Part shown: in pieces, positions 39 through 20,909 of the stretch | How the letters are laid out: every line of letters starts with the position of its first letter | How positions within the stretch are numbered: position 1 is the first letter of the stretch | Assembly: GCF_022810445.1 (NCBI RefSeq) | Contig: NZ_JAACGD010000103.1 | Coordinates: forward strand, 1-20,909 | DNA: 20,909 nt | Source of the DNA: Candidatus Cardinium sp. cBcalN2 | GTDB lineage: Bacteria > Bacteroidota > Bacteroidia > Cytophagales > Amoebophilaceae | Reading direction: 5' to 3' | Position numbers and translations under genes: made by a program | Notes under the pieces: model-generated | What the model saw: the letters and a program-made list of their open reading frames with translations, nothing else | Databases searched by the model: none | Told to the model about the DNA's origin: nothing

Positions 39-128
39 TGTTCATGACATTGGTAAAAAATGAATCTTTATTGTTACTTTTTTCTTGATAAAAAAGTAAC
101 CAAAAAATCAAGCCCTCAGTAAAAAGTT
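39..128. repeat. Leader plus A-type palindromic repeat, copy 1
   Basis: Two parts recur at the far end of the window. Positions 39-59 match 20717-20737 with two differences in 21 nt. At 73-100 there is a perfect palindrome with 11-nt arms (GTTACTTTTTT at 73-83, AAAAAAGTAAC at 90-100) around the loop CTTGAT. Positions 101-128 match 20882-20909 with one mismatch in 28. The element lies beyond the 3' end of recJ, which reads leftward. The orientation is the same as the right-end copy. It could act as a terminator-like hairpin; that is inference. Confidence 0.8.
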
Positions 129-131
129 TCG

Positions 132-250
132 GCAAGCAGCCCTTACAGCTGAAATAGAAAAACAGCTTGTTTGAAGCCCGCGAAGCGGGCGAGTTCTGTT
201 TTTCTATTTCAGCTGTAAGGGCTGCTTGCTGATCGCAACTATTTTACAAG
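132..250. repeat. B-type long hairpin repeat with 34-bp perfect arms, copy 1
   Basis: Positions 132-165 are the exact reverse complement of 196-229, giving 34 perfect base pairs. The 30-nt spacer (166-195) holds a second small hairpin: GCCCGC at 176-181, loop GAA, GCGGGC at 185-190. The right arm continues to 250 with a tail that also recurs elsewhere. The 55-nt unit 196-250 aligns without gaps to 16481-16535 (about 46 of 55 identical) and with small gaps to 20763-20817. It starts 65 bp past the recJ stop codon and could stop transcription from either side or form a cruciform. It encodes no protein that I can see. Confidence 0.85.
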
Positions 251-314
251 GGGCGTTTTTGCTTTTTCTACGTAGCTTTGACACTGCGCTGAACGACTAC
301 GGGTAAAGCTGACT

Positions 315-2024
315 TCAAACAATAGATGGTTCTTCTTTAATATCCTTGATCATAAACTGTAAAGATTTATGGCCTAAGTAATAATTATACCCTATGGTAT
401 AGGCCATAGCAAAGGGCTTACCAGTAGCAACAAGTGGTAGATAGCCCCCCAAACCAAAGCCTATGGCTTCATAAGATTCCTGACCATCTATTTGATATAC
501 CTCTAGTTTAAGATGTTTTTCTTTAACCAAATGACATTTGCGAGCATAAACTTTTTCACTAGCAAATACGGGTGTGGCATTGCCTGGTCCAAAAGGAGCC
601 ATTTGCATCAATATGTTTACAAATTTTTGTGTAATAGCCTGAAAAGAAATAAGGGCATGGATGCTTTGCTGAGGAATCAATAAATCATCTGTAATGGTTG
701 CTGATACTACTTCCTCAAATTGTTGTTGGAACGTAGTCATATGTGCTAGCGGCATGGTCAGACCTGCCGCAAAAGCATGCCCACCATATTGGTCTAGAAG
801 CGGACTGCATTCGGAAATAGCTTCATAAATATTATACCCCGGTATGGAACGAGCAGAGCCAGTCGCTTTACCATCAGCAAGGGTTAAAATTACAGTAGGC
901 CTGTAGCATTGTTCAATGCAACGGGAAGCTACAATGCCAATAATACCTTTGTGCCAATCTGGATTAAAAAGCACTGTACTTTTGGTTCCATAAGCGTTAT
1001 TTTCTATCATAGTCAAAGCTTCTTGCGTAATCGTATAATCGAGGGATTGACGTAAGAGATTCTGTTGATTGATAGACTGTGCTAACTTATAGGCATTGGC
1101 TAGATCCTGTTCTATAAGTAACTGAACGGCCAAAGAGGCATGGTTCATACGTCCAGCAGCATTAATCCGTGGGCCTATTTTAAAAACAATATCAGAAATG
1201 GTAATCGTAGCCGAAAAGTAGCCTAATTCCATTAATGCTTGTAGCCCCGGACGAGGACTGTTTTCTAATTGTTTAATGCCGTAATAAGCTAAAATCCTAT
1301 TTTCATCTACCAAAGGAACAATATCACAAGCGGTACTAACGGCCACAAGGTCTAAATAATCATAAAGCATATCCGGCTTTAACCCACACCTTTGACAGAA
1401 AGCTTGTAATAGCTTAAAACCTACACCACATCCTGATAATTCTTTAAAAGGGTAAGAACAACTTGGTTGTTTTGGGTCTAAAATAGCATAAGCTGGTGGC
1501 AAACTAGCTCCTACTTCATGATGGTCACAAACAATCACATCTATGCCTCGCTGAACGGCTCGAGCAATGGGTGCATAGGCTTTTATACCACAGTCTAAGG
1601 TGATGATAAGCTTAATACCATTTTGGTAGGCACTTTCTATGGCCTGCATAGAAACCCCATAACCCTCTATCATTCGGTCTGGAACATAATAACTTAGTGT
1701 TGCACCAGGTAAGGATCGAAGGAAACCATAAACCATAGCCACAGCTGTAGTACCATCTACATCATAGTCACCATAAATTAATATTTTTTCTTTGCTGTTT
1801 ATGGCGCGGTGCAAACGGGCTACCGCTTGTTCCATCCCTTGCATTAAAAAAGGATCATGCAATTGAGATAAGGAGGGGCGAAAAAAATCCTTGGCCGCTT
1901 GAAAAGTTTCTATTTCTCTATGCACCAAAATGGATGTAATAGCAGCAGGGGTACCCAGGACCTTTTCGAGTGCTGCTACCTTATCAGGCTTTTTAAAAGA
2001 TTCAATAACCCAACGTTTCTGCAT
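315..2024 (-). CDS. recJ: Single-stranded-DNA-specific 5'-3' exonuclease RecJ
   Basis: RecJ degrades single-stranded DNA 5' to 3' in recombinational repair and mismatch repair in the cytoplasm. The 569-residue protein is a typical length and shows the DHH-family metal-binding motifs in order: DYDVDG at residues 86-91, LDCGI at 143-147, DHHE at 167-170 and GPRINAAGRM at 284-293. The C-terminal DHHA1 domain follows, with ATGSARSIPG near 387-396 and GGHAFAAG at 414-421. All expected catalytic Asp and His residues appear present. The ATG is 11 bp after the stop of the TPR gene, so recJ is probably the last gene of the pdhA-TPR-recJ operon. Nothing looks truncated. The region past the stop codon is a repeat-derived hairpin that may end the transcript. 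Confidence 0.96.
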   Translation of the reverse strand: MQKRWVIESFKKPDKVAALEKVLGTPAAITSILVHREIETFQAAKDFFRPSLSQLHDPFLMQGMEQAVARLHRAINSKEKILIYGDYDVDGTTAVAMVYGFLRSLPGATLSYYVPDRMIEGYGVSMQAIESAYQNGIKLIITLDCGIKAYAPIARAVQRGIDVIVCDHHEVGASLPPAYAILDPKQPSCSYPFKELSGCGVGFKLLQAFCQRCGLKPDMLYDYLDLVAVSTACDIVPLVDENRILAYYGIKQLENSPRPGLQALMELGYFSATITISDIVFKIGPRINAAGRMNHASLAVQLLIEQDLANAYKLAQSINQQNLLRQSLDYTITQEALTMIENNAYGTKSTVLFNPDWHKGIIGIVASRCIEQCYRPTVILTLADGKATGSARSIPGYNIYEAISECSPLLDQYGGHAFAAGLTMPLAHMTTFQQQFEEVVSATITDDLLIPQQSIHALISFQAITQKFVNILMQMAPFGPGNATPVFASEKVYARKCHLVKEKHLKLEVYQIDGQESYEAIGFGLGGYLPLVATGKPFAMAYTIGYNYYLGHKSLQFMIKDIKEEPSIV

Positions 2025-2035
2025 AAACGCATCAA

Positions 2036-2722
2036 CTACAAAGTTGCTGACAAACGATTAGATTCTTTAATGGCCAAACTACTGTTATAGCGAGAAGTTG
2101 GATATTTTGCTATAATTTCTTGGTAGCAATCATAAGCCTGTTTATATTGCCCATCTGTTTCAAAAGCGATAGCCGCTTTAATCAAATAGCCAGGGCTATA
2201 TACACTATTTTCTTTATAGTGAGCGGCCTTTATATAATAGATAGCGGCTTGTTTATGATTTTTTTGTTCACTGTGGGCATCACCCATTACAGACCAAGCA
2301 CGGGCTTGCAAGATAAAATCTTTAGCCTTAAATCTACTTAAAAAAGCTAAGGCTTCATCATATTGTTTTTGGTGCATGTAGGCAATACCTGTATAAAAAC
2401 AGGCTAGATTCGCAGTGGTAGTACCAGGGTATGCTTTAATAATTTCCAACAAACCTTTATGAAGGCCATCTCCCTTTAACGCTTTATCAAAATCACCTGC
2501 TTCAAAATGATAAACCGCTTGAAAAGCCTCATCCTCTGCTTTTAAACTCTTTGTTGGCTTGAGATACAAAAACCATAGCCAAGAAGCAGCTGCCATACAA
2601 GCGATCAAAAAGAGTAAAATATACCACTTTTTTTTGCTGTGATTGAGCTCTTTTAAACTTTCTTTTTCCCGGCTATGCGCTATAATCTTTCTAGGAATAC
2701 TGTTTATATCTATGGTTTTCAT
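2036..2722 (-). CDS. Membrane-anchored tetratricopeptide-repeat protein (YfgM-like)
   Basis: The 228-residue protein has a charged cytoplasmic N-terminus (residues 1-33), one hydrophobic segment at about 34-54 and then a helical domain. That domain holds TPR-like repeats, for example around ACFYTGIAYMHQKQYDEALAF, RAWSVMGDAHSEQKNHKQAA and IKAAIAFETDGQYKQAYDCY. This single-TM-plus-TPR layout, including the AFQAVYHFEAGDFDKAL stretch after the membrane helix, resembles the YfgM-like TPR proteins common in Bacteroidota. Such proteins are thought to assist periplasmic folding or secretion. It lies 5 bp after pdhA and 11 bp before recJ, so the three genes are probably co-transcribed. The specific partner cannot be told from sequence. 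Confidence 0.85.
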   Translation of the reverse strand: MKTIDINSIPRKIIAHSREKESLKELNHSKKKWYILLFLIACMAAASWLWFLYLKPTKSLKAEDEAFQAVYHFEAGDFDKALKGDGLHKGLLEIIKAYPGTTTANLACFYTGIAYMHQKQYDEALAFLSRFKAKDFILQARAWSVMGDAHSEQKNHKQAAIYYIKAAHYKENSVYSPGYLIKAAIAFETDGQYKQAYDCYQEIIAKYPTSRYNSSLAIKESNRLSATL

Positions 2723-2727
2723 AAAAT

Positions 2728-3762
2728 TTAATGCTGAAGAAATGGATAATCTTTTTGTTTATACACATAATCATAAACCGTTGCTGGATCTGGAAACGAA
2801 GATTTCTCTGCAAAAGCAACTGCTTGCGCAATTTGATCTTTTACTTTTTGTTCCATAGCCTCCAGTGCCGCTTCATCTGCAACTTTCTTTCTTAAAATCA
2901 ACGCTTTAAGTTTGAGAATCGGATCTTGCTCTTTGTAGATTTCTACCTCATCTTTGGTACGATAAGTAGCAGGGTCAGACATCGAGTGGCCTCTATAACG
3001 GTAGGTTACAAACTCTAATAAGCTGGGGATACCTTTTCTAGCTTTTATGGCTGCTTGTTCCACAGCACAGTGTACGGATTCTACACATAAGCCATCTAAA
3101 CGCGCTGCATCCATAGCATAACTGCTGCCCAATCGAAAGAGTTCCGTGACATTAGAACTCCGTTCTACTGAAGTACCCATGGCATACCCATTGTTTTCAA
3201 TAACAAAAATGATGGGTAACTTATAAAGCATGGCTAAATTGAAAGCTTCATGGACAGCCCCCTGACGCACTGCACCATCGCCCATAAAAGTAATGCACAG
3301 ATTGCCGGTTTTTTTATATTGTTCAGCAAACGCAATACCTACCCCTAAAGGGACGTGTCCACCCACAATGCCATGACCACCCAGAAAATGACGAGCTTTA
3401 TCGAACATATGCATAGAGCCACCATATCCTTTAGAAACACCAGTAGCTTTACCATAAAGCTCAGCCATTACTTGACTGGGGCAGGTTCCCAATGCAATCG
3501 GATGAGCATGGTCACGGTAAGCAGTAATGTATTTATCCCCTTGGCGCAGTGCCGTAACAACGCCAACTATACAAGCCTCTTGCCCTGTATAAAGGTGACA
3601 AAAGCCTCGAATTTTTTGCTGCCCGTAGAGTTGAGCTGCCTTATCTTCGAATTTACGTATCAGCCACATCATCTCATACCATTGCCCATAAAAAGGCGAA
3701 AGATCTGTCCTACTAATAGAGGATAAAGGAAGTTGTGTTTTATCTATAGTTGAAGAGATCAT
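2728..3762 (-). CDS. pdhA: Pyruvate dehydrogenase E1 component, alpha subunit
   Basis: E1 alpha pairs with E1 beta to decarboxylate pyruvate with thiamine diphosphate, the first step of the pyruvate dehydrogenase complex that makes acetyl-CoA. The 344 residues match the family length. Visible motifs are YRDHAHPIALG (82-92), the GHGIVGGHVPLGVG segment near 129-142, the ThDP motif from GDG (161-163) to ENN (189-191), and the conserved loop YRYRGHSMSDPATYR in the C-terminal half. The gene heads a minus-strand operon with a TPR gene and recJ. The beta subunit and the E2/E3 genes are not adjacent, so the complex is encoded at more than one locus. A matching Bacteroidota promoter lies 33 bp upstream of the ATG. 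A related branched-chain or acetoin dehydrogenase E1 alpha is possible but less likely. Confidence 0.93.
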   Translation of the reverse strand: MISSTIDKTQLPLSSISRTDLSPFYGQWYEMMWLIRKFEDKAAQLYGQQKIRGFCHLYTGQEACIVGVVTALRQGDKYITAYRDHAHPIALGTCPSQVMAELYGKATGVSKGYGGSMHMFDKARHFLGGHGIVGGHVPLGVGIAFAEQYKKTGNLCITFMGDGAVRQGAVHEAFNLAMLYKLPIIFVIENNGYAMGTSVERSSNVTELFRLGSSYAMDAARLDGLCVESVHCAVEQAAIKARKGIPSLLEFVTYRYRGHSMSDPATYRTKDEVEIYKEQDPILKLKALILRKKVADEAALEAMEQKVKDQIAQAVAFAEKSSFPDPATVYDYVYKQKDYPFLQH

Positions 3763-3794
3763 GGTTACGCTTGGTTGCTATCATTATCATTAAG

Positions 3795-3826
3795 CAAAAT
3801 TACCCAACTAACGACAAAAAATCAAA
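3795..3826 (-). promoter_or_regulatory. Bacteroidota-type housekeeping promoter for pdhA
   Basis: Read on the minus strand, TTTG (complement of 3823-3826) is followed after exactly 20 nt by TAATTTTG (complement of 3795-3802). This fits the -33 TTTG / -7 TAnnTTTG consensus of Bacteroidota sigma-A. It lies 32 nt before the pdhA ATG. The tRNA-Asp promoter in this window has the same 20-nt spacing. Confidence 0.7.
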
Positions 3827-3993
3827 AAAGTAAAGTATTATAGCTGTTCGGCAGGTTGACAAATAAGGATAAATAGCCGATATGGCTTTTTCTGATCATT
3901 TTATACATTATACTTTGACAGAATTAACCTAAAGTATATAGAAACAAATTAGTACTTTTTTCCCAATTTTTTCAGCCCATTATATGTAAACCG

Positions 3994-4067
3994 TGCGCTC
4001 GGAAGGACTCGAACCCTCAACCTTCGGAGCCGAAATCCGACGTTCTATCCGGTTGAACTACGAGCGC
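3994..4067 (-). tRNA. tRNA-Arg(UCG)
   Basis: The reverse complement folds into a full cloverleaf of 74 nt. The acceptor stem GCGCTCG pairs with CGAGCGC and the D arm is GTTC/GAAC. The anticodon stem TCGGA/TCCGA holds the loop TTTCGGC, giving anticodon UCG (arginine). The T arm GAGGG-TTCGAGT-CCTTC contains one G-U pair, and the discriminator is A. The CCA end is not encoded. It sits alone, upstream of and on the same strand as the pdhA operon, facing away from the lolD gene. Confidence 0.95.
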
Positions 4068-4169
4068 GTAATCAAAAATTTATATATTTTAGATTTTACT
4101 CAAGCCAAATGGAGGCTTCATTAAAATGGTAAAATTTTAGACTAAAAGTACAAAACTTTATGCAGATAT

Positions 4170-4838
4170 ATGCTTATAGCCAAAGAACTTTGTAAATCTT
4201 ATCATGCCTACAAAATCCTGAATCAGGTTAGCCTATCCATCCATGCTGGAGAAATGGTAGCCATTATGGGTCCCTCCGGGGCGGGTAAAACTACGCTATT
4301 ACATCTTTTATCTACCCTAGATAAGCCAGATAGTGGTTCCTTAACGTTAGATGGAGAAGATCTTACAGTACTGGAAGGTAATGCATTGGCAGCATTTAGA
4401 AATAAAAAAATAGGTTTTGTTTTTCAGTTTCATAACCTTTTACCTGAATTTACACTTTTTGAAAATATTTGCATCCCTGGTTATATTGGCTCTTCTGCTA
4501 AAGAATCAGTAGCTCAAAAGGCCAATGACCTTTTATCTTTGTTGGGCATTAGCCATCGAAAAAACCACTTGCCAGAAGCTGTTTCTGGTGGCGAAAGGCA
4601 GCGTGCAGCGGTAGCTAGAGCATTGATCAACCATCCGGCTATTATTTTTGCGGATGAACCAAGTGGTAACCTGGATTCCAAAAACGCACAAATGCTACAT
4701 ACCCTTTTCTTAGAGCTTTCCAAACAATTAAAACAAACTTTCGTCTTGGTAACCCATAACCAATCGCTGGCCACTATGGCAGATAGAATTTTATTACTAA
4801 AAAATGGTATATTAGAACCAGCGCAAAGCGTAGGTTGA
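4170..4838 (+). CDS. lolD: ABC transporter ATPase of the LolD / lipoprotein-release family
   Basis: The 222-residue protein is a single ABC ATPase domain with no membrane segment. It shows Walker A GPSGAGKT (34-41), Q-loop VFQFHNLLPE (Q86), signature SGGERQ (139-144), Walker B IIFADE (158-163) with PSGNLD following, and the switch His of VTHN (196). The LLPEFTLFENI segment after the Q-loop and the overall size fit the MacB/LolD group. In that group the ATPase powers lipoprotein extraction from the inner membrane together with LolC/E-type permeases. No permease gene is adjacent, which is common for lolD in Bacteroidota. FtsE or another MacB-type ATPase is the alternative. Two exported lipoproteins in this window would be plausible clients. 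Confidence 0.85.
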   Translation: MLIAKELCKSYHAYKILNQVSLSIHAGEMVAIMGPSGAGKTTLLHLLSTLDKPDSGSLTLDGEDLTVLEGNALAAFRNKKIGFVFQFHNLLPEFTLFENICIPGYIGSSAKESVAQKANDLLSLLGISHRKNHLPEAVSGGERQRAAVARALINHPAIIFADEPSGNLDSKNAQMLHTLFLELSKQLKQTFVLVTHNQSLATMADRILLLKNGILEPAQSVG

Positions 4839-4868
4839 AGCTATCTTTAGCTGTTCCTGGTTACTAAA

Positions 4869-6269
4869 ATGTTTATAACATACAAAATGAACTATATGCT
4901 TAGTAAAATGTATTCAAAGATTGTATTAACCATGGCTTTGACTTCCATCCCATGTTACGCTTCAGAATCAAAAGTATCTGCCAAGCAGAATAGCCATTAC
5001 CATGATTATCATGGTTATGTAGACTGTCATTCCTGGGCTGCTTATTTACATCATCATCCAGGTTATAAGCCCTATCATCCAGTTACTGATATTAAAAAAC
5101 ATGGATGTAATTGGGGTACCTGGGTAACTTTTCCTCAAAAAATTGAAGCTATACAGGTCAGAGTAGGCCATATTAGTACTCCCTTGGAATTACTTCGATC
5201 AAAAGATTTTTTAGTAATCTATAAGCATCCCCACTATTATGAAGAAGCTTTTTTCAATTATATAGTAGACAAGCGGTATACTTTAGAGCAAAAAAAAATT
5301 GCTGCATACGCTATGAGCAGGCACTCATATCCTTATTGGGAAAAATTTTGCGAGTTATATAAGAAAAAAGAAATAGAGCTCCCTCTTTTAGAGTTGATGC
5401 TTGCTATTCATATAACTAATTCTTTTAATGATTGTTATTGTAAGATTACGCTGACAAAAGAAATAAAACGAGTTTCTCCTACCTTGGAACGTATTCAAAA
5501 TAATATCCCAAAAGATTCGTCTTTGCATCATCATCTTAAGTCTATATTAGTAGATAGCCAATTACCAAAGTCATGGCATAAGTACCGCATACATGATTCT
5601 GGTGACATTTCACGTGGTTATTATACTGCGGACTTGCCGTTTTATGATATTCTTACTGATGCAGTCAGAGAGGCAGACTATGTAATAAATTGCAACCCTG
5701 GTGATAGCGAGTTTCGTTTAGATAACTACCCTTATTTTTTAATGGTTATGGAGCATCCTGTGGATTACTATCCTGCTCATTTTGAGCTTGGGCCAAAAAG
5801 TAAAAAAGAACAAGACACATCAAGAGAACATACGAGTGGCATAGATGTATTGCGATATAAAGGATATACGGATGAAGAAAAATCTATGACTATATTTGGT
5901 ATGTCTCAATTAGGTGTAACAAACAGCCTTGAATCCTCCGGTTATTATGCCTTTATGATAGACCATGCTATAGAATGGTATAAGCTAGGCAACCTTTCGG
6001 TACACCATTTATTGGAATTATTTATATGTAACTTTCCTACATTCTATAAATATCCTTTTTTTATTTTAGACTATAAGGAGGAAGCTATACAAAAAGCTTT
6101 GAACAAATTTATAGCAGAGCCCACCATACCGGAAGGTATTAAAGAAGTTGCCCGTAAAGTCAAAGATGGTACTTTAGCTACTAAAGAAGAAATGAACTAT
6201 ATGCAAGGCTATCGTACTTTCCGAAAAACGCATTTTACCTTGTATGAAACGATTGTCCCTCGTGATTAG
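4869..6269 (+). CDS. Exported protein of unknown function with an internal duplication
   Basis: I do not recognise this 466-residue protein. The N-terminus contains a hydrophobic stretch (about 18-30) ending in CYA-SES, a plausible signal peptidase I site. Met14 (4908) or Met10 may be the true start, because it would place a short Lys-containing segment before that stretch. After the signal comes a His/Tyr-rich region (42-80). Two segments then resemble each other. Residues 113-186 hold DFLVIYKHPHYYEE, RYTLEQKKIAAYAMS and LPLLELMLAIHITNSF. Residues 289-396 hold YFLMVMEHPVDYYP, GYTDEEKSMTIFGMSQ and VHHLLELFICNFPTF. It starts 30 bp after lolD and may share its transcript. No catalytic motif was identified. 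It could be a periplasmic, surface or secreted host-interaction protein; that is inference. Confidence 0.75.
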   Translation: MFITYKMNYMLSKMYSKIVLTMALTSIPCYASESKVSAKQNSHYHDYHGYVDCHSWAAYLHHHPGYKPYHPVTDIKKHGCNWGTWVTFPQKIEAIQVRVGHISTPLELLRSKDFLVIYKHPHYYEEAFFNYIVDKRYTLEQKKIAAYAMSRHSYPYWEKFCELYKKKEIELPLLELMLAIHITNSFNDCYCKITLTKEIKRVSPTLERIQNNIPKDSSLHHHLKSILVDSQLPKSWHKYRIHDSGDISRGYYTADLPFYDILTDAVREADYVINCNPGDSEFRLDNYPYFLMVMEHPVDYYPAHFELGPKSKKEQDTSREHTSGIDVLRYKGYTDEEKSMTIFGMSQLGVTNSLESSGYYAFMIDHAIEWYKLGNLSVHHLLELFICNFPTFYKYPFFILDYKEEAIQKALNKFIAEPTIPEGIKEVARKVKDGTLATKEEMNYMQGYRTFRKTHFTLYETIVPRD

Positions 6270-6366
6270 TACCTTACTATATTTCAACCAATAACCCACT
6301 GCGTTGAATAACTTTACTGTAATATGATAACGCCATATAGCGAGCATTTAACTGAGTAAGCTTTAT

Positions 6367-7389
6367 ATGATTCAATCCGCCCAAACAGTTCTCCAAGACT
6401 TACATAAAGGTATTTATCAACCTATTTACTTTTTGCAAGGGGAGGAAGTATACTACATTGATGCTATTACCGAATATATCGAAGAAAAACTCCTGACACC
6501 AACTGAAAAGAATTTTAACCTAACCATTGCCTATGGCAAAGAATGCAGTATGGCTACACTGCTTACCCAAGCACGTCGTTTTCCAATGGCCGCTACTTTA
6601 CAAGTGGTAGTTGTAAAAGAAGCACAAGAGATGGCAGACTTAAAAAATGCTACGGGTCAAAAGTTATTGTTACATTATTTAGATCATCCACAGCCCACTA
6701 CCTTATTAGTCTTTGCCTATAAATATAAAACCATAGATGGTCGTACTGCCTTGGGTAAAGTCTTAAGCAAAAAAAATATGCTGGTTACTGCCAAAAAGCT
6801 CTACGATCAACAATTACCTGCTTTTATTAAATCCTGTGTCAAAAACCTAACATTAACTATAACAGAAGAAGCTGCTTGCTTAGTAGAAGGCTATATAGGT
6901 AACGACCTGACCAGAATCACTAGTGAGCTCCATAAATTACGTATTAACCTTACCCCAGGTAGCACTATTACCGATAGCATCGTAGAAGCCTATATAGGTT
7001 TGCATAAACCTTTCAATGTATTTGAACTACAAAAGGCCATTATGCAAAAAGACTACCCAAAAAGTTATCAAATCATTCGTGTTTGCTCATCCAATGCAAA
7101 GGAACATGCTGCTCTTCCGATTGTAACCATTCTATATAACCTTTTTGCTAAGCTACTTGTATTGCATCAAACCAAAGAAGCCGTTCCTACTAAAATTGCT
7201 CAGCAAATTGATGTAAATCCTTATTTTATACAGGGATATCTTCATGCGATGCAAAACTATACACTGCATGAAACTATGAAAAATATCACCTATCTCCATC
7301 AAGCCGACTTACAGTTAAAAAGAATTGATTCCAATCTTAATGACTATCAAATTATGAAGGGATTAATTTTTAAATTAATGCACCCATAA
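6367..7389 (+). CDS. holA: DNA polymerase III subunit delta
   Basis: HolA opens the beta sliding clamp as part of the clamp-loader complex during replication. The 340-residue protein has the usual length and the N-terminal pattern of Bacteroidota HolA: GIYQPIYFLQGEEVYYID near 15-32, then NFNLTIAYGKE, ARRFPM and the VVVVKEAQEM strand near 77-86. The delta AAA+ fold lacks a functional Walker A, and none is seen here. The helical middle region (ITEEAACLVEGYIGNDLTRITSELHKL) and the C-terminal collar-like helices are as expected. It is separated from the previous gene by about 100 bp and followed 15 bp downstream by a repeat-related AT hairpin. Confidence 0.93.
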   Translation: MIQSAQTVLQDLHKGIYQPIYFLQGEEVYYIDAITEYIEEKLLTPTEKNFNLTIAYGKECSMATLLTQARRFPMAATLQVVVVKEAQEMADLKNATGQKLLLHYLDHPQPTTLLVFAYKYKTIDGRTALGKVLSKKNMLVTAKKLYDQQLPAFIKSCVKNLTLTITEEAACLVEGYIGNDLTRITSELHKLRINLTPGSTITDSIVEAYIGLHKPFNVFELQKAIMQKDYPKSYQIIRVCSSNAKEHAALPIVTILYNLFAKLLVLHQTKEAVPTKIAQQIDVNPYFIQGYLHAMQNYTLHETMKNITYLHQADLQLKRIDSNLNDYQIMKGLIFKLMHP

Positions 7390-7403
7390 AGTGCTTGCTA
7401 AGC

Positions 7404-7427
7404 TTACTTTTTTATCTAAAAAAAGAC
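7404..7427. repeat. Degenerate A-type palindrome downstream of holA
   Basis: The stretch reads TTACTTTTTT, a short loop, then AAAAAAAG. It has the same layout as the A palindrome at 73-100 but with a degenerate loop and a shorter stem (CTTTTTT at 7407-7413 with AAAAAAG at 7419-7425). It begins 15 bp after the holA stop and could act as a weak terminator. Family membership is inferred from the layout and position. Confidence 0.45.
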
Positions 7428-7618
7428 TTCTTGCAAAGCGCATTTGTGATCAGCCATTTTTAGGAGAAATGGAGTTAAGCACCGCAAAATACGCAATCTA
7501 TTTCAGGAGTATAGAGCAGCTTCGACACCAAGATGGCCATTAAAAATAGGCCTTGCAAGGGGTCTAAATGTAAAAGAGCGCTGAGAAAATAGTTGGATAG
7601 TAAATAGAAATCCATATG
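7428..7618. other. Intergenic region before the long TPR gene
   Basis: I see no ORF with coding character. A 6-bp hairpin (CCATTT 7454-7459 / AAATGG 7467-7472) is the only clear structure. Scattered words resemble B-repeat tails but are too short to call. Confidence 0.4.
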
Positions 7619-7648
7619 TTGGCTAACGGAAAGCACTGCTAATTTTTG
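7619..7648 (+). promoter_or_regulatory. Possible promoter for the 994-residue TPR gene
   Basis: TTG at 7619-7621 is followed by 18 nt and TAATTTTTG at 7640-7648. This is close to, but one base longer than, the TAnnTTTG consensus. It lies 22 nt before the ATG, a reasonable distance. It is weaker than the pdhA and tRNA-Asp promoters. Confidence 0.4.
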
Positions 7649-7670
7649 AACCTAAAATATCCATATATCC

Positions 7671-11889: not shown

Positions 11890-12214
11890 CACTTTATAAA
11901 GCTTAGATAGGCTGATCATTATTATGATTATAAAATAGATTAACTAGTCAAATGGTTTATTTTTCCAGCATAGTTGGCATACCAAAATAGCCTTATAAAA
12001 ATACATAGTACAAGTTCTATTAAGCAGTAACTTTATTTATTATCTATCTTAAATAGATGATGAAAATCTGCTGCCCAATGTGAGTATTGATACAAAAATT
12101 TTTATTGTATTAGCTATATTGTTCAGGCAAATATGGCAAATAGTGTCAATTTAAACCTTTAACGCTTAGTAAATTTTTTAACAAAAAATGGATAAAGAAT
12201 CTGACCATTATCTA

Positions 12215-12256
12215 TTACTTTTTGCTTGATTACATCTTTGATCAAGCAAAAAGTAA
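12215..12256. repeat. A-type inverted repeat with 16-bp perfect arms
   Basis: TTACTTTTTGCTTGAT (12215-12230) is the exact reverse complement of 12241-12256, with the 10-nt loop TACATCTTTG. The arm shares the TTACTTTTTnCTTGAT core with the copies at 74-89 and 16986-17001. Lying between convergent genes, it is a good candidate for a bidirectional terminator, though it is 326 bp past the HU stop and 148 bp past the pth stop. Confidence 0.75.
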
Positions 12257-12353
12257 CTTAAAATTGCTGATAAGCATTTTTAGTTTTAAGTTCAATTTAA
12301 ATAAACATCTATATGCAACGGTCTGATCTATCTTGTTAGCCGCCCCCTTAAAG

Positions 12354-13602: not shown

Positions 13603-14075
13603 ATCTGTTGTTTATGATCAATGTAAAATTAATATGTTTGATGTATTTTGGACTTGCTATCCTATTGCTATACGGTAACTAAGCAGAATCAAAATCAAAT
13701 TTAATAAAAAAATCGATATAAAAATGTATAGTGGACTGGTTTATTCAGACAAATTGTATGGGTTCAAGACTATGGCTATTCTAGGCAAAACCGGCCCTTG
13801 TCAAATAATTGCGATCAGAAAAACATAGCTTACAGATAACAAAGCAAAATAGTTGCAGGGAGGGGGCTCAAGGGGTGGATCCTGTTTTGCCAGCTGTAAG
13901 GGGTGATTGCAGCAATTTTTTACCCAGGGCTTGCTTTTTTACCAAAATCAGGAACAAATACCGCTTATCAAAAAATATTTTTTCGTAACATTGTCAAAAC
14001 TATTCATGGAATACTGCACCATGCAAAATCCTGTAAATACGCTGTACCTACTATATATTTTAATGTTACGATCAA
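13603..14075. other. Divergent intergenic region between rplY and the first lipoprotein gene
   Basis: This 473-bp gap must hold promoters for both flanking genes. Only a partial -7 word for rplY was found. It also contains a degenerate B-type hairpin (13796-13935). A rightward reading frame at 13907-14212 lies in this gap and then overlaps the lipoprotein gene; it has no coding character. Confidence 0.6.
13796..13935. repeat. Degenerate B-type hairpin repeat
   Basis: The left arm (13796-13851) resembles the reverse complement of the 196-250 unit: CCTTGTCAAATAATTGCG against CCTTGTAAAATAGTTGCG, then GATCAG, then CTTACAG. After a G-rich spacer (13852-13879) the right arm starts at 13881 with CTGTTTTGCCAGCTGTAAGG, in the same sense as copy 1. 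This preserves the left arm, spacer, right arm layout, and its left arm keeps the tail segment that is missing from the left side of copy 1. It is decayed but recognisable. Confidence 0.65.
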
Positions 14076-14792
14076 GTGAACCTATATCATTATACCATCA
14101 ATGGAATAAAAATGGTATTAACAACTATTTTGTTTTACTTTTTTATGTTGCTTGTTTCTGGATGTGGACGAATTCGAACCACTGCTGCTATGATACCTAC
14201 AGAAAATCATGATAACCGCCCTGCACCAGCTCTACTACACACTACTGAACTCAATCAGCATATTCTAACAACTATTCAAGATGTTCAGATTGCTGGAACA
14301 GATGCTAACCAAGCGGTTTGGACTGCTAATACATTAATTATTGATATTGTTAGACTAGTTAAATCTACCCAATATGGGTCTACATTGCATCTTAATAAAG
14401 CTGAGAAAAGTTTTAATGAAGTGAAAAAAGCTACTAGTGTCGTTAATAAATCTGTTGATCAAGCATTAACTATGCTAGGTCGTGCTATAACTAGTGTAAT
14501 GGCTGAAAAAAGTAGTAAGGGAAACAGTCTTGCGAACCTTATTTACCCTCGCCTACATGAGCTGACTAAACATCTTACCGATGCGCAAAAATTGGTTCAG
14601 AAAGTTCATGAAGAAGTGCAACTTTACTACAAAGAGTCCATTGTAGCCCGTAAAACAAGAACGCGTGCTGAAGATTTTAGTAAAATTCACCTAGCTTCTG
14701 TTAATAATTGCCAACGTATCGGGTATATTGATAACCATATTGAAAATTGTTGTAAAAAACTTAAGCGTTATATTGAACTTTACTGTAAATAG
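14076..14792 (+). CDS. Helical lipoprotein of unknown function
   Basis: I do not recognise this protein. Read from the GTG at 14076 it has 238 residues. An ATG at 14112 (Met13) is the alternative start, but it would leave no positive charge before the hydrophobic segment, so the GTG or Lys12 context favours the longer form. The hydrophobic stretch ends in LLVSGC (Cys30), a good lipobox, so the mature protein is probably a lipoprotein. The rest is mostly predicted helix with heptad-like spacing (TTELNQHILTTIQDVQ, EKSFNEVKKATSVVNKSVDQ, RLHELTKHLTDAQKLVQKVHEEVQ), suggesting a helical bundle or coiled coil. A degenerate repeat lies upstream, and a second lipoprotein gene follows 342 bp downstream. 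Confidence 0.72.
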   Translation: MNLYHYTINGIKMVLTTILFYFFMLLVSGCGRIRTTAAMIPTENHDNRPAPALLHTTELNQHILTTIQDVQIAGTDANQAVWTANTLIIDIVRLVKSTQYGSTLHLNKAEKSFNEVKKATSVVNKSVDQALTMLGRAITSVMAEKSSKGNSLANLIYPRLHELTKHLTDAQKLVQKVHEEVQLYYKESIVARKTRTRAEDFSKIHLASVNNCQRIGYIDNHIENCCKKLKRYIELYCK

Positions 14793-15134
14793 CTTACTAC
14801 CTATACAGTTGTTATCAACTTAAGCAAGTTGTTCGTGTTCTTACACGATTTGTCTGTACCAACTTTTTACCTAAAATTTGATTTATTAGCTACTGCTTGA
14901 TAAAGAAAAAAATGCAAGACAATGTAGAACTAATATGCTAGGAACCAGTTCTATTAAACGGCTGTAGCTAACAAATGTTTTTACATATAAGGCATGTAAT
15001 TTTTTAAAACTTATCCACAATACATTATATTTTGACTAATTTTCCTAGACTTGATGCCATTGTGTGAACAAATACAATTAAACTAAACCCATGACTTTAA
15101 AATTGTTCAAAATTAAAAATTAATATTATTAGCT
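14793..15134. other. Intergenic region between the two lipoprotein genes
   Basis: This very AT-rich 342-bp gap has no convincing ORF. It contains a small stem (TCGTGT 14833-14838, loop TCTT, ACACGA 14843-14848) 41 bp past the first lipoprotein stop. There is no confident promoter for the downstream gene. Confidence 0.5.
14833..14855 (+). terminator. Possible terminator after the helical lipoprotein gene
   Basis: A perfect 6-bp stem with a TCTT loop is followed by a short T-rich run (ATTTGTCT). The position is right for a terminator but the stem is short and the T-run weak. Confidence 0.3.
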
Positions 15135-16397
15135 ATGTTAAAATTTAATTCTAAAAAATACCTTTTTCTTATTCTATTAGGTTGTATACTATATAATTGC
15201 CAGCAGCATGATTCACTGAATTGGCTTAAGCGTAAAAAAAACACCCGTACCAGTTTAGGTCCCCAAAGTGATATGAATAGCAATTCTAATAATATTTCAG
15301 AATCAAAACTGAAAAATTTCCTTGTAGTGTTACATGGTCATCGGATGAATAACCAAAATACACCAGCAAAAGATATTGGAGACAACGTTAACCTAATATT
15401 AGAAGAGAACGCTAAAATACCCTTTACAATTTTTAAGCCAACATGTAGACAGAATGAGGTATCTGACAAACTCAGTATCCTTGATCAATCAAGATTAGTG
15501 GTCAATGAATTACAAGCAGCACTAAAAGCATACCTTAGAAAAGAATTCCCCAAATGGTCAGAAATAGAGATTGCGGAAGGAGTTAAAAAAGTTCCAGTTT
15601 ATCTGCTTGGAAATAGTCAAGGGGGACTTGTAGCACTTATGATCGGGTACAACCAAACAAAAAAAAGCACTCATCCTAAAGTGAAAATAAATCTTAAAAG
15701 GATAATAGCCTGCAGTACACCTACACAAGGTCTTGAACTACTCAGTAATGCTTATCGGGACGCACAGCGTTTTGTAAGAACAATCAACAACATACTACCC
15801 CAAGCCTATAACTTAGTTGGTAGCAGCAAGAAACAAGTAACTAGGATGCCTATAGTATTAGGCTTAGCGCGCTGCTTACCTGCTTGGTTGACCTCCAAAA
15901 CCACACTAGGCCCAGGGCTCTTAGATATGCACCCAAGGTCTAAGACTATTCAGCAGGTAGTTAGCTTTATCAATGACCCAAAGCATGGTATACCTATATG
16001 CCTAATAGGTGGTAAGACAGACAAGATTAGTAAATATATTAGTAAAAATAATGGTATTAAAAATGATATTGATCCTGGTGCAATCTCTCAAGAGTCTAAA
16101 AATTTGTTTGATGAAAACTATGCACAAGTTGTTACTGGAAAAAAAGACGGAAAGCATGATGGTATCATTTCTTTAGATAGCCAGCTATGTGACAAGACTA
16201 ACATTGAATTTCATGAAACAACTAAGGGGGACGTTATTAACAAAGATAATAAGGTCACCAGAATTCTTTTATCTGGTGATTACATACATTGCTATAATTT
16301 TACGCTAAATGATAAGCTAGGCTTCAACGAAAAAAGTGACACAACTGTAGTAGAATCTAAGAGAGCTGCAAAGTATATAGCAGCAGATATACATTAG
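15135..16397 (+). CDS. Putative lipoprotein serine hydrolase (alpha/beta hydrolase, lipase-like)
   Basis: The 420-residue protein has an N-terminal export signal (KKYLFLILLGC) with a likely lipobox Cys17; Cys22 in LYNC is less likely. It then has alpha/beta-hydrolase features. A strand with HG in LVVLHGHR (67-68) could form the oxyanion hole. The nucleophile elbow is GNSQGG, with Ser161. HDGIISLDSQ near 341-350 contains a candidate Asp342. GDYIHCYNF contains a candidate catalytic His385. The spacing and the late DGxxxxxSQ motif resemble triacylglycerol lipases and PGAP1-like hydrolases. The substrate is unknown: lipid, phospholipid or a peptide ester are all possible. A surface or periplasmic lipase in a symbiont could act on host lipids; that is inference. 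A B-type repeat follows the gene. Confidence 0.75.
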   Translation: MLKFNSKKYLFLILLGCILYNCQQHDSLNWLKRKKNTRTSLGPQSDMNSNSNNISESKLKNFLVVLHGHRMNNQNTPAKDIGDNVNLILEENAKIPFTIFKPTCRQNEVSDKLSILDQSRLVVNELQAALKAYLRKEFPKWSEIEIAEGVKKVPVYLLGNSQGGLVALMIGYNQTKKSTHPKVKINLKRIIACSTPTQGLELLSNAYRDAQRFVRTINNILPQAYNLVGSSKKQVTRMPIVLGLARCLPAWLTSKTTLGPGLLDMHPRSKTIQQVVSFINDPKHGIPICLIGGKTDKISKYISKNNGIKNDIDPGAISQESKNLFDENYAQVVTGKKDGKHDGIISLDSQLCDKTNIEFHETTKGDVINKDNKVTRILLSGDYIHCYNFTLNDKLGFNEKSDTTVVESKRAAKYIAADIH

Positions 16398-16449
16398 CAC
16401 ATGGGCAATGAATCAAATATTGCCATCAAACCTATTGACATTACATCTT

Positions 16450-16535
16450 AAAGGAAAACAACAGTTTTTGTATAATATTACTGTTTTTCTATTGCAGTTG
16501 CAAGGGTCACTTGCTGAGCAGAACTATTTTACAAG
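16450..16535. repeat. B-type repeat arm with left-arm remnant
   Basis: Positions 16481-16535 align without gaps to 196-250, about 46 of 55 identical, starting CTGTTTTTCTATT and ending ACTATTTTACAAG. A shorter left remnant (GGAAAACAACAG near 16453-16464) sits where the inverted arm would be. It lies between the lipase-like gene and the ftsL-like gene, about 70 bp before the latter. Confidence 0.75.
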
Positions 16536-16550
16536 TGATATTTTTGGGTC

Positions 16551-16569
16551 CACTGCTGCCACAGTAGTG
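16551..16569. repeat. Short hairpin upstream of the ftsL-like gene
   Basis: CACTGCTG (16551-16558) and CAGTAGTG (16562-16569) can pair with one G-U, around a 3-nt loop. It ends 36 bp before the ATG. A role in expression is possible but unsupported. Confidence 0.35.
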
Positions 16570-16605
16570 CATAGATAGCTATTTATAGTTTAAACCCATC
16601 TCAAA

Positions 16606-17034
16606 ATGATAGAAAATACTTATAAGCCGATTAAAAAATCAAATTTATTTAATCGGTTAGAAAAGAAATTCCGTTTATATGGGATAGCATTAGATATCCC
16701 TTACTATTTACCTCGTCTATTGTATATTTTCTCTTTGGGGTTAGTCTACATCTGGAATGCCCATTATCATGAAAAAATGTTGCATCAAATCAACGAGCTT
16801 CAGCCTATGGTAGATGGACTTCGCGTAAAGCATATGAGATTGCAGTCTAGCTATATGTTTGAACGTAAACAATCAGAAGTGGCTAAAAAAGTTGCTCAGT
16901 TGGCTATTTATGAAAGTAAAGTTCCCCCTTATTTAATAGCCGCCTCTAGAAGGGCTACTTTGGCCAGTCCAAGGAATATTTTATCTTACTTTTTGCTTGA
17001 TCAAAAACCAAGGAAAAAATCAAATGTTAGCTAA
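16606..17034 (+). CDS. ftsL: FtsL-like cell division protein
   Basis: The 142-residue protein has a cytoplasmic N-terminus, one transmembrane segment (about 34-50, PRLLYIFSLGLVYIWNAHY) and then a periplasmic coiled-coil-like helix (EKMLHQINELQPMVDGLRVKHM). The motif RKQSEVAKKV follows. This arrangement, directly upstream of the ftsI-type gene, is the standard Bacteroidota dcw position for the FtsL-like protein that helps assemble the divisome. The final 15 or so residues (SYFLLDQKPRKKSNVS) are encoded by a stretch that aligns gap-free with the intergenic A repeat at 74-112, so the native C-terminus was probably replaced or extended. rsmH and mraZ, which usually precede it, are absent from the window. 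Confidence 0.82.
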   Translation: MIENTYKPIKKSNLFNRLEKKFRLYGIALDIPYYLPRLLYIFSLGLVYIWNAHYHEKMLHQINELQPMVDGLRVKHMRLQSSYMFERKQSEVAKKVAQLAIYESKVPPYLIAASRRATLASPRNILSYFLLDQKPRKKSNVS

Positions 17035-17080
17035 ATAGTTGCAAAAAACAACTATTTTGCAATGCATGTTTTTGTTTTTT
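16986..17080. repeat. A + B repeat remnant overlapping the ftsL-like 3' end
   Basis: Positions 16986-17024 align gap-free to 74-112 (shared words TTACTTTTT, CTTGAT, AAAAA and AAAAAATCAA). Downstream, AAATAGTTG (17033-17041) and CAACTATTT (17049-17057) form a 9-bp stem. From there to 17080 the sequence follows the B tail at 235-267. The A-then-B order is the same as at 73-267, so this looks like a copy whose hairpin centre was deleted. Confidence 0.7.
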
Positions 17081-17103
17081 TGCGTATGTCCCCATTGGGC
17101 TGA

Positions 17104-19230
17104 ATGCATAAATCCCATCTAACCAAGCAAGTGCGATTTACGAAGTCAATTTTATTACGTGCCAGAATCATTCTTCTGTCTGTTATATTCTTTTTAGTAG
17201 TTATTACCTGGAAAATAGCTCACTTGCAGTTTGTAGAAGTGGATAAATGGTGTAACCGTGCCAAGCTTACCCAATTAGCCTATAAACCTATTGTAGCATC
17301 CAGAGGTAATATTTATGCCTACGATGGCGCTTTATTAGCTACTTCTCTTCCCTTTTATAGCGTTGCTTTAGACCCTGTTGTGGCTTCGAATGAGTGCTTT
17401 AAAAAAGGTATAGATCCACTTAGCCAAGCATTGGCTAATTTTTATCAAGATAACCCTCCCCAATATTACAAAAGTCGTATCGTAGAGGCACGTAATAAAA
17501 AACGGAGATATCTATTGTTGCACACAAAACAGATCACTTATGAAGAAAAAAAGCAAATGAGCCATTGGCCTATTTTTAATCAAGGTAAATTCAAAGGAGG
17601 GGTGATTTTTCAGGAGCAATATAAACGTTACAATCCTTTTAAAGAATTAGCCAGACGAACGATTGGTATGCATAGAGAAAAACATGGTTATGGCCTAGAA
17701 TATGCTTTTAACAAAGTATTAAAAGGAGTAGATGGGCAAGCGCTTTATCAGAAAGTAGTAGGTGGTAATTGGAAACAAGTCGCCGAAAGTACTATGATAC
17801 CTCCCATACATGGGGCTGATTTGATTACTACGCTGGACATCGATCTACAAGATGTAACCCAAAGCAGTTTGTTATTCGTTCTTGAACAAACCCATGCACA
17901 AAATGGCTGTGCTATTGTAATGGAAGTGGCTACCGGAGCCGTTAAAGCTATTGCTAATTTAGCTCGTACAGAATCTGGTAAGTATACAGAATCTTATAAT
18001 TATGCTATTGGTAATCAAGGTACCGTTGAACCAGGTTCTATTTTTAAGTTGGCATCTATGTTGGCTTTGTTAGAAGAAACAGGATGGCCCCTTACTAAGC
18101 CAATAGATACGGGACATGGTGCTATTCAATTCTATAATAGATGGATGAAAGATGTAAAAAAAGGGGGCTATGGGTTACTTACCTTGCAAGAGGTATTTGA
18201 AAAATCTTCTAATGTTGGGCTTTCCATGGCCATTCATGAAACATTTGGCACCAACCCTGAAAAGTTTATTGACTACATGGAGCAATTGGGCATGCACGAA
18301 CCTTTAGCCATTGAACTAGCTGGAGAAGGTAAACCTTATATACTCACTCCGAAAAGCAAAATGTGGAGCGGGGTGGCATTGCCATGGCTCTCTATTGGAT
18401 ACAACCTACAGCTTACCCCCCTGCAAATATTAGCACTATACAATGCAGTAGCCAATAATGGTAAAATGATTAAACCCCTATTTGTGCATCGCATAGAATC
18501 AGCAAACGGTCTAGTTAAAAAATTTCCGACTACTATTTTAAAGGAAAAGATCTGTTCAGATGAAACTTTATATAAACTGAAAGTAATGCTAGAAGGAACA
18601 GTAGAAAACGGTTTAGCCCAACGGATTAAGCATGGATTTTATAAAATAGCTGGTAAAACAGGTACCGCACAAAAGTTGGTCAATGGGAAGTATACAGACG
18701 ATCACCTTACTTCATTTGCAGGTTATTTCCCAGCAGATCATCCTCGTTACAGTTGTATCATTGTAGTAGACAGTCCACAAGGGGAAAGCTTTCGCTTTGG
18801 TTCAGAAGTACCTGCACCTATATTTAAAGATATTGTCGATAGAATAGCTGGAAAAGATCTAGAAGCAAGAAAACCAATTAATGGATCGATAGGATCTCAT
18901 ACAACAACACTGTCTAATGTTGGCTATAGGGAAGACTTACGTTTTTTATATCAATATCTCCAGCTTCCTATGCCTGAAAATGTAGGTGTAACAGCAAGTT
19001 GGGGCAACCTAACTATCCGTTCTACCGAAAGCAAATTTGAGCCATGTAAGGTCCAATCTTTCAAAGAATGGCCTGGTGTATGGCCTATAGTATTAGGTAT
19101 GAAGCTACGTGATGCGCTCTTTTTATTGGAAAAAAATGGCTTATCCATTACGGTAGAAGGGAACTTACATGGTAAGGTATGCAAACAATCTAAAATAAAA
19201 GCTAATCAAATTACCATCTTATTAAAATAA
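17104..19230 (+). CDS. ftsI: Septal peptidoglycan D,D-transpeptidase (FtsI/PBP3-type, with PASTA domain)
   Basis: This class B penicillin-binding protein cross-links septal peptidoglycan in the periplasm. The 708 residues comprise a short cytoplasmic end, one membrane anchor (about 18-37), the PBP dimerisation domain with RGNIYAYDGALLATS (68-81), the transpeptidase domain and a C-terminal PASTA-like domain. The active-site motifs are intact: SIFK with Ser312 and Lys315, SSN at 368-370 and KTG at 518-520. The PASTA-like segment (about 655-708, MKLRDALFLLEKNGLSITVEG) ends slightly early but carries the expected pattern. The gene follows the ftsL-like gene by 69 bp, most of it repeat remnant, and its TAA overlaps the murE ATG by one base. 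Confidence 0.95.
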   Translation: MHKSHLTKQVRFTKSILLRARIILLSVIFFLVVITWKIAHLQFVEVDKWCNRAKLTQLAYKPIVASRGNIYAYDGALLATSLPFYSVALDPVVASNECFKKGIDPLSQALANFYQDNPPQYYKSRIVEARNKKRRYLLLHTKQITYEEKKQMSHWPIFNQGKFKGGVIFQEQYKRYNPFKELARRTIGMHREKHGYGLEYAFNKVLKGVDGQALYQKVVGGNWKQVAESTMIPPIHGADLITTLDIDLQDVTQSSLLFVLEQTHAQNGCAIVMEVATGAVKAIANLARTESGKYTESYNYAIGNQGTVEPGSIFKLASMLALLEETGWPLTKPIDTGHGAIQFYNRWMKDVKKGGYGLLTLQEVFEKSSNVGLSMAIHETFGTNPEKFIDYMEQLGMHEPLAIELAGEGKPYILTPKSKMWSGVALPWLSIGYNLQLTPLQILALYNAVANNGKMIKPLFVHRIESANGLVKKFPTTILKEKICSDETLYKLKVMLEGTVENGLAQRIKHGFYKIAGKTGTAQKLVNGKYTDDHLTSFAGYFPADHPRYSCIIVVDSPQGESFRFGSEVPAPIFKDIVDRIAGKDLEARKPINGSIGSHTTTLSNVGYREDLRFLYQYLQLPMPENVGVTASWGNLTIRSTESKFEPCKVQSFKEWPGVWPIVLGMKLRDALFLLEKNGLSITVEGNLHGKVCKQSKIKANQITILLK

Positions 19231-20708
19231 TGATCAAACCTCTTCAAGAACTGCTTATAGGTCTACCTATAAAAAACATATTGGGTTCAACCGACCTAGC
19301 TATACGCACCCTTTGTTTTGATAGCCGTAAAGTAGCTGCTGACGCTTGTTTTTTTGCTATAGAAGGCACCCAAGTAGATGGTCATAACTACATAGCAATG
19401 GCCATAGCTGCAGGTAGTCGTGTGATCGTGTGTGCAAGGTTACCTGACTCCATTCAGGACAATGTAACCTATATAGTGGTCCACTCTACGCTTAGCGCAC
19501 TGGGCATTATGGCTGCTCATTTTTATGACCAGCCTAGCCAAAAACTTAAAATAGTAGCCGTTACTGGTACAAACGGTAAAACTACCATTGTCCATCTGCT
19601 CTATAAGATGGTCATGCAGATGGGCCATAAAGCTGGTATGATCTCTACTATATATAATAAAGTGGTAGATGAAAGCTATCCAGCTAGCCATACTACACCA
19701 GATGCACTCCAATTACAGTTTCTATTACACCTTATGGTAGCAGCAGGTTGTAGCTATTGTTTTATGGAAGCTAGTTCGCATGCTCTTGTTCAAGAAAGAT
19801 TAGCAGGTGTACATTTTACGGGTGCTATTTTTACCAATATCACCCATGATCATTTGGATTATCATCTTGATTTTGGACACTATATTCAGGCTAAAAAAAA
19901 GCTATTTGATGGGTTGTCTGTTACATCTTTTGCCCTTATGAACCACGAAGATAGGAATAGCCCTATTCTTATTCAGAATTGTAAGGCTAAAAAGTTTACT
20001 TTTTCACTTCGAGACGCTGCTGATTTTAGAGCAAAACTGATTACCAATACACTAGATGGGTTAGAGTTGGCAATAGATCATCAATCGATTTGGTTCCAGC
20101 TAATGGGTGCATTCAATGCCAGCAATCTATTGGCCGCTTATGGTGCCGCTCAGTTATTGGGACTTAATAGCCAAGAAAGTTTGGTAGCCCTTTCGACTAT
20201 TCCCCCTATTGTAGGGAGAATGAATAAAGTAGATCATGGCCAATCACAACAGGTTATAATAGACTATGCCCATACCCCAGATGCTGTGCAAAAGGTTATC
20301 CATACATTACGTGCTCTACTCCCTGCTGGCAGTAGGCTCATTACCATTATGGGCTGTGGAGGCAATCGTGATCAACAAAAGCGGGCAATGATTGGAAAAA
20401 TCCTATCTAAAAATAGTGATATAGCTATATTTACTAGTGATAATCCAAGGGATGAAGATCCACAGGAAATTATACATGCCATGCAACAAGGAGTGCCTCA
20501 AGCAGCCTTGCCCAAGGTGCTATCTATTATAGATAGAGCTATGGCTATTAAAACAGCTTGCTACATGGCTCATGCAAAAGATCTTATTTTAATAGCAGGA
20601 AAAGGTCATCAATGTTATGAGGAAATCAAAGGGATCAAACATTTCTTTTGCGAGGAAAAGATTGTTCAGGAAATTTTGGGTGATACAAAAAATGTTTCAA
20701 TAACTTAA
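19230..20708 (+). CDS. murE: UDP-N-acetylmuramoyl-L-alanyl-D-glutamate--2,6-diaminopimelate ligase
   Basis: MurE adds the third residue to the peptidoglycan stem peptide in the cytoplasm, using ATP. The 492-residue protein has the Mur-ligase P-loop GTNGKTT (113-119), TTPDALQ near 155-161, EASSHAL (180-186), NITHDHLDYH (203-212), and AKKKLF with the lysine (222) expected to be carbamylated. YAHTPDAVQ (346-354) and DNPR (404-407) follow. The DNPR motif is the established signature for meso-diaminopimelate rather than L-lysine. The ATG overlaps the ftsI stop (TAATG), implying translational coupling. The gene normally found next, mraY, does not follow; a repeat region begins instead. Confidence 0.96.
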   Translation: MIKPLQELLIGLPIKNILGSTDLAIRTLCFDSRKVAADACFFAIEGTQVDGHNYIAMAIAAGSRVIVCARLPDSIQDNVTYIVVHSTLSALGIMAAHFYDQPSQKLKIVAVTGTNGKTTIVHLLYKMVMQMGHKAGMISTIYNKVVDESYPASHTTPDALQLQFLLHLMVAAGCSYCFMEASSHALVQERLAGVHFTGAIFTNITHDHLDYHLDFGHYIQAKKKLFDGLSVTSFALMNHEDRNSPILIQNCKAKKFTFSLRDAADFRAKLITNTLDGLELAIDHQSIWFQLMGAFNASNLLAAYGAAQLLGLNSQESLVALSTIPPIVGRMNKVDHGQSQQVIIDYAHTPDAVQKVIHTLRALLPAGSRLITIMGCGGNRDQQKRAMIGKILSKNSDIAIFTSDNPRDEDPQEIIHAMQQGVPQAALPKVLSIIDRAMAIKTACYMAHAKDLILIAGKGHQCYEEIKGIKHFFCEEKIVQEILGDTKNVSIT

Positions 20709-20716
20709 AAGTATCA

Positions 20717-20817
20717 TGTTCATAACATTAGTAAAAAGCTTTTATGGCAACTTTCATCGCAACTGTTTTGCTATTTCAGCCGTAAAGGGCACTTGCTAGA
20801 TCGCAACTACTTTTGTA
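20717..20817. repeat. Leader and single B arm downstream of murE
   Basis: 20717-20737 repeats the leader at 39-59 with two differences in 21 nt. 20763-20817 repeats the 196-250 unit with small indels (CTGTTTTGCTATTTCAGC, then TAGATCGCAACTA). The arrangement begins 9 bp after the murE stop. No left arm is visible, so this is a solo arm. Confidence 0.7.
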
Positions 20818-20852
20818 TTTATTCTCCAGCTTTGGTAAAAAAAGCTTTTCTA

Positions 20853-20909
20853 TACCCCTTTTTTCTTGATAAAAAAGGGTACAAAAAATCAAGCCCTCTG
20901 TAAAAAGTT
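20853..20909. repeat. A-type palindrome, copy at the right edge
   Basis: TACCCCTTTTTT (20853-20864) and AAAAAAGGGTA (20871-20881) pair around the loop CTTGAT with one bulged C. Downstream, 20882-20909 matches 101-128 with one mismatch. Two base pairs of the stem differ from copy 1 on both sides, so the pairing is kept (75/98 and 76/97 against 20856/20879 and 20857/20878). The copy runs off the window edge. Confidence 0.8.

Follow-up and report, generated by a model that had tools for sequence, protein, structure and literature searches.

What kind of element is scattered through contig NZ_JAACGD010000103.1 of Candidatus Cardinium sp. cBcalN2, and how has it been moved? This contig, 20,909 nucleotides long and analyzed here in full as the window, carries a repeat in which a short palindrome (module A) is followed by a long hairpin (module B). 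A first-pass annotation, made from the sequence alone, had described it as a composite, non-autonomous family which has spread and is now eroding, a description that proved right. We propose a two-layer explanation, which we regard as probable taken as a whole. In the genus, the repeat would be a miniature inverted-repeat transposable element (MITE) of about 255–290 bp, with no gene and imperfect inverted ends, and a DDE transposase from the insertion sequence (IS) family IS66, making 8-bp target duplications, would mobilize it in trans. Its cargo, A+B, would be an older structured repeat, composed of a hexaloop pseudoknot (A) and a long hairpin (B), which would have moved horizontally before being enclosed by IS66-type ends in this genus and amplified. 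The mover of A+B itself would act on a folded single strand, DNA or RNA, a type of recognition suggested by the fold. The terminal inverted repeats, the 8-bp duplications in a congener, the IS66-type ends, the pseudoknot and the presence of A+B beyond this lineage had all been overlooked in the first-pass annotation.

Inverted ends, target duplications and the IS66 family

A profile was built from 13 copies of the same genome located outside the window and then scanned over the window, with 50 Markov-simulated windows providing the chance level. Where a copy had been annotated at 39-250, the profile matched 30-302 (E 1.7e-69) and recovered both ends of a complete element, organized as follows:

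34..300, + strand: whole element of 267 bp, in the order end, A, B, end
34..57, + strand: left terminal inverted repeat GTATCTGTTCATGACATTGGTAAA, 0 mismatches to the end consensus
73..112, + strand: module A, with stem 73-83/90-100, loop CTTGAT 84-89, linker 101-106 and ATCAAG 107-112, which can pair with the loop
113..254, + strand: module B, a long imperfect hairpin (fold computed, outer limits set by eye)
277..300, - strand: right terminal inverted repeat, 2 mismatches to the end consensus

The open reading frame (ORF) list of the window contains no ORF of at least 60 aa inside 34-300. The inverted ends, GTATCTGTTCA-6N-TGGTAAA (N, any nucleotide), extend outside 39-250; such terminal repeats were found in the own genome and in a congener, and are imperfect in the window copy.

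The family is abundant in its own genome, a 1.05-Mb assembly of 272 contigs, many of them ending in these repeats. With up to two mismatches, 93 A cores and 131 end-consensus matches were found, against 0 for each reversed-pattern control. Neither of the outcomes that the first-pass annotation had named as refuting the family, an absence of further copies or shared words at the frequency given by base composition, was thus observed. Because some of these matches sit at contig ends, a copy may have been counted twice, and the 105 blast matches obtained in this genome represent several pieces per copy and not a copy number. The family accounts for much of the repeat content of this symbiont genome. 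Seven other genomes of the genus were available, and the A core is present in 5 of the 8, in 0 of 13 other genomes of the family and in 1 of 36 other genomes of the order. A genome-wide scan of one congener (G023) returned 76 A cores; another (G025) has one, its sole end-consensus match lying far away, and among the matches listed from this genome for an empty-site comparison none spans the flanks of the unit. A Candidatus Cardinium plasmid also gave a match, covering 72% of the query at 69% identity.

The mode of movement was examined in G023, where the 48 loci used contain 44 distinct A copies and 23 complete elements with both ends, 255–258 bp long. Five of these 23 elements are flanked by exact 8-bp target duplications and one more by a duplication matching at 7/8 positions, and no exact duplication of 6, 7, 9 or 10 bp was found among them. 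The six duplications at 7/8 or better compare with a mean of 0.365 and a maximum of 2 in 1000 re-pairings of the flanks. An 8-bp duplication is what we take to be the value of the IS66 family. In a third congener (G024), an IS66-family element of 1539 bp, with the ends GTGTGCGTTCAGCGTAGTGG and GTATGTGTTCAGCGCAGTGG and the flanking 8-bp duplication ACTCTTTT, carries a 405-codon ORF matching PF03050 (IS66), and PF03050 matches, some of them weak, were obtained in five of the seven congeners. The right end of one G023 MITE (L318) is identical to one G024 IS66 end over 25/25 nt and agrees with the three other compared IS66 ends at 22/25. Collectively, these data support that the genus elements are most likely IS66-type MITEs, and that an IS66-family DDE transposase probably moved them in trans. 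It is through the congeners that the window element is assigned to this family.

Several observations weigh against this assignment. A recognizable duplication is absent from 17 of the 23 complete G023 elements and from the flanks of the window copy, and in the own genome 2 of 11 end-to-end candidates (L009 and L137) have what may be a 9-bp duplication. The left end of the G023 MITE agrees with the IS66 ends at 16–18/25 positions, and for the window copy the identity of its ends to the four compared IS66 ends is 13–16/25. A second IS66-family ORF (444 codons), in G023, is bounded by similar ends but has no duplication. PF03050 gave no match in the 272 contigs of the own genome, from which the parental IS may have been lost or in which it may be unassembled.

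As a separate observation, two loci of the own genome (L141 and L158, on contigs C14 and C204) are mini-elements of ~107 bp, in which two inverted left ends surround one A hairpin without B.

A folded module in distant genomes

Module A is a hairpin with the hexaloop CTTGAT, followed downstream by ATCAAG, which is complementary to the loop. For the stem (S1), sequences were retrieved with a pattern leaving the 5' arm free and compared with 500 shuffles. Among 27 distinct genus sequences, pairs 1, 9, 10 and 11 exceeded all shuffles; among 53 distinct sequences from elsewhere, pairs 1 and 10 did so, the latter by one. For the loop pairing (S2), a pattern with its inner pair left free gave 61 matches in 11 of 395 genomes, and among the 38 listed the inner pair is T-A in 30, C-G in 6, A-T in 1 and mismatched in 1. 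Similarly, a stem-only scan placed ATCAAG within 30 nt of 87 of 92 CTTGAT loops and revealed two loci pairing CTTGAC with GTCAAG, and Parabacteroides and Ilyobacter plasmid copies combine CTTGAA with TTCAAG. On balance, an H-type pseudoknot is supported. Since template switching may keep hairpin arms matched, the covariation of the arms is weaker functional evidence than the pairing of the loop.

Module B is a hairpin of about 140 nt whose sequence varies between lineages; in the window copy, its inner arms (129-165 and 196-232) are 97% complementary. After A, 14 of 111 units have an apical motif, CTCG...TCAAACA, and 24 of 111 have TCAAACA alone; among 96 upstream control windows, the corresponding counts are 0 and 3. 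The complete motif is absent in this form from the other 97 units, and in the window copy a form of it is found on the opposite strand of B.

This A-then-hairpin architecture occurs far outside the genus. In GTDB genomes, the A pattern matched at least 106 stretches, and most of the 80 listed belong to Bacteroidota. Among the matches listed, A+B is found outside this phylum in Orenia and in two metagenome-assembled genomes (MAGs), one from Calditrichia and one from Paceibacterota, whose contigs are possibly misbinned; A+B is also present in Ilyobacter. In even phylum samples the A pattern is rare, being found in 8/395 and 11/395 genomes with two patterns (own genome included), and twenty positive genomes hold 1–20 copies each. 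The reversed A pattern was found 0 times in every genome searched.

In other genera, the blocks common to copies of one genome mostly start about 10–35 bases ahead of the core and extend to roughly +160 to +225, some being much longer. Clear inverted ends outside the genus were found in 1 of 111 units, an Orenia locus (L102) whose 18-bp inverted repeat encloses A+B and is unlike the IS66-type ends. Inverted ends reached a length of 12 in L081 and 11 in five units; random pairs gave 10 or less save for one draw of 41, which probably arose when loci that overlap were paired by accident. A protein partner shared by the A loci was sought by clustering 731 ORFs taken from 106 of them; no transposase family is present among the largest clusters, which reach 8 of the 106 loci.

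A number of points count against such a folded and widespread module. The hairpin arms could stay matched by template switching alone and, outside the genus, S1 pair 9 shows no covariation (31/53 paired, against a mean of 29.7 and a maximum of 31 in the shuffles) and pair 11 does no more than equal the shuffle maximum. Of the 38 listed loop-pair matches, 28 come from three genomes and are not independent, and one is the inner-pair mismatch mentioned above. Uncompensated loops also occur: in one genome (G015), 3 of the 6 copies listed combine CTGGAT or TTGGAT with ATCAAG, one copy of another (G003) combines CTTGAC with ATCAAG, and single genus copies have CTTAAT, CTTCAT and TTTGAT loops. Finally, relatives with an altered A would have been missed, because most matches underlying the distribution come from exact or near-exact patterns.

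A+B could, more tentatively, be a class of non-autonomous mobile element not described before, extending over several phyla and moving in a folded single-stranded form (DNA or RNA), a proposal about which we remain more doubtful than convinced. If true, the IS66-type ends of the genus and the 18-bp end pair of Orenia would be secondary captures of A+B. With a conserved structured module in several phyla, the partner moving A+B can now be sought directly.

Individual occurrences of A show various arrangements. One Bacteroidia genome (G417) contains three inverted A pairs with their cores facing each other, 290–433 bp apart. At another locus (L434, genome G191), two inverted A cores ~3.1 kb apart surround an ORF predicted, from its sequence, to be a nucleotide-sugar dehydrogenase, in a setting resembling an exopolysaccharide locus. 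On the Aureibacter plasmid pAT6, an A+B unit (L407:1201-1244) separates cas5d from cas7d in a type I-D CRISPR operon. Clusters of A in the same orientation (L253, L254, L258 and L260) have spacings of ~200 bp in a Bacteroidia MAG, 229–264 bp in Sphingobacterium and 556–637 bp in Pedobacter cryophilus. A phage origin was considered and rejected, the exact pattern matching 2 stretches in viral_contigs and no phage record. At the Rfam gathering score, no element match was obtained in 20 loci, the sole match being a tmRNA beside the element; below it, Flavo-1, Acido-Lenti-1 and other families gave weak matches in these loci.

Known repeats and alternative explanations

Like MITEs with an IS66-family parent, the window family is short, gene-less and present in many copies, with an 8-bp duplication and inverted ends that match those of a genus IS; unlike them, it bears a structured module which in other genomes occurs without such ends. 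In the genus, 13 IS66 transposase copies have been reported for Cardinium cPpe (PMC6232779, consulted in part), and the main text of a review on MITEs contains neither the word IS66 nor Bacteroid (PMC10969869). A search of the open-licence PMC literature by sequence and topic, covering the papers in part, found no description of A+B, which is apparently undescribed. An IS-derived MITE is already known in this genus, and the window family might be a relative of it. MITECca01/02 of Cardinium cOegib share its size class and abundance, MITECca01 being about 240 bp long and present in 169 copies; however, the authors derive them from IS982, MITECca01 having ISCca4 (IS982) ends, and report them in that strain and in no other (PMC9769881, in the part available). 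The window family, compared here by description, has ends and 8-bp duplications that fit IS66, and a word fitting the MITECca01 motif AGMTTGTW, noted by eye at 164-171, lies in the middle of B and away from the ends. Such a kinship is therefore improbable. Scarcely different is the probability of A+B being an ordinary MITE interior, its distant occurrences representing separate AT-rich palindromes. While A is indeed AT-rich and the sequence of B differs between lineages, separate palindromes would agree poorly with the complete lack of reversed patterns and with an apical motif following A but never found in control windows.

Other mechanisms have been proposed for dispersed, structured and intergenic repeats. 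REP (repetitive extragenic palindromic) hairpins, which also occur in Bacteroidota, are moved by REP-associated tyrosine transposases (RAYTs), and RAYT genes of the Bacteroidetes subclass 2.6 have atypical structures at their flanks, copies of which also occur elsewhere in the genome (PMC6006769, consulted in part); CGTC repeats are likewise listed in Bacteroidetes (PMC3733652, consulted in part). Y1_Tnp genes are present in 18 of 20 tested genomes, which would allow such a mechanism. However, no A core (≤4 mismatches) flanks 28 weak RAYT-like loci, representing 25 distinct regions, or 27 IS200-like loci, whereas the same finder detects 121 A matches in the 106 positive loci; these 55 loci are a subset of 66 listed matches and were searched over flanks of about 1.5–2.5 kb, some cut by contig ends. 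In addition, the own genome has no PF01797 match, and the window family differs from REPs by an A whose loop pairs with downstream sequence and by a unit of ~200 nt. To our knowledge, RAYTs are not characterized by inverted ends and 8-bp duplications. A REP-type repeat moved by a RAYT is hence unlikely, if slightly less so than the other alternatives. The least probable of all is a non-mobile cis-acting RNA or terminator of neighboring genes. Although the stems covary and, of the 75 copies having ORFs to either side, 2 are located within an ORF of 110 aa or longer, these copies show no clear orientation bias relative to the flanking ORFs (25/18/18/14), no neighbor family dominates, and the high copy number, inverted ends and duplications seen in the genus are those of a mobile element. 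IS66-type MITEs carrying A+B thus remain the favored explanation.

Other copies in the window and neighboring genes

A listing of repeats in the window on its own already displays the blocks common to the copies. The first-pass annotation had placed related elements at seven positions, six of which are supported by the outside-trained profile. The seventh, 7404-7427, is at chance level (E 0.03; the second-best simulated window reached 0.028), and the support for 12215-12256 is marginal (E 2.4e-4 versus 0.0017 for the best of the 50 simulated windows). A copy at 14858-14914 had been missed. In addition to the complete element, the window thus contains:

12211..12266, no single strand: two A arms in inverted orientation, marginal (minus 12266-12226, E 2.4e-4; plus 12211-12232, E 0.47)
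13755..13961, - strand: near-complete copy with the A stem lost (13943-13755, E 1.5e-37; end-like words at 13951-13961 and 13756), annotated as 13796-13935
14858..14914, - strand: decayed A half-copy (E 4.2e-5)
16480..16578, + strand: right half, B 3' arm and right end (E 9.2e-16), annotated as 16450-16535
16970..17114, + strand: centre-deleted copy (16970-17043, E 4.3e-9; 17049-17114, E 3e-4), annotated as 16986-17080
20747..20813, + strand: B 3' arm fragment (E 1.3e-11), annotated with the next as 20717-20909
20829..20909, + strand: left portion of a further copy, with A and the beginning of B, truncated at the contig end (20829-20908, E 5.1e-16)

At the Rfam gathering score, the window gave two tRNAs and no element match. 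The centre-deleted copy supplies about the last 21 residues of an FtsL-like (FtsL_2) ORF at 16606-17034, so that a MITE copy now codes for the end of a cell-division gene. The FtsL_2 Pfam match covers residues 31-113, and the repeat-encoded tail lies beyond it. On its other side, the same copy extends to the start of a penicillin-binding-protein ORF at 17104, named from its translation by Pfam.

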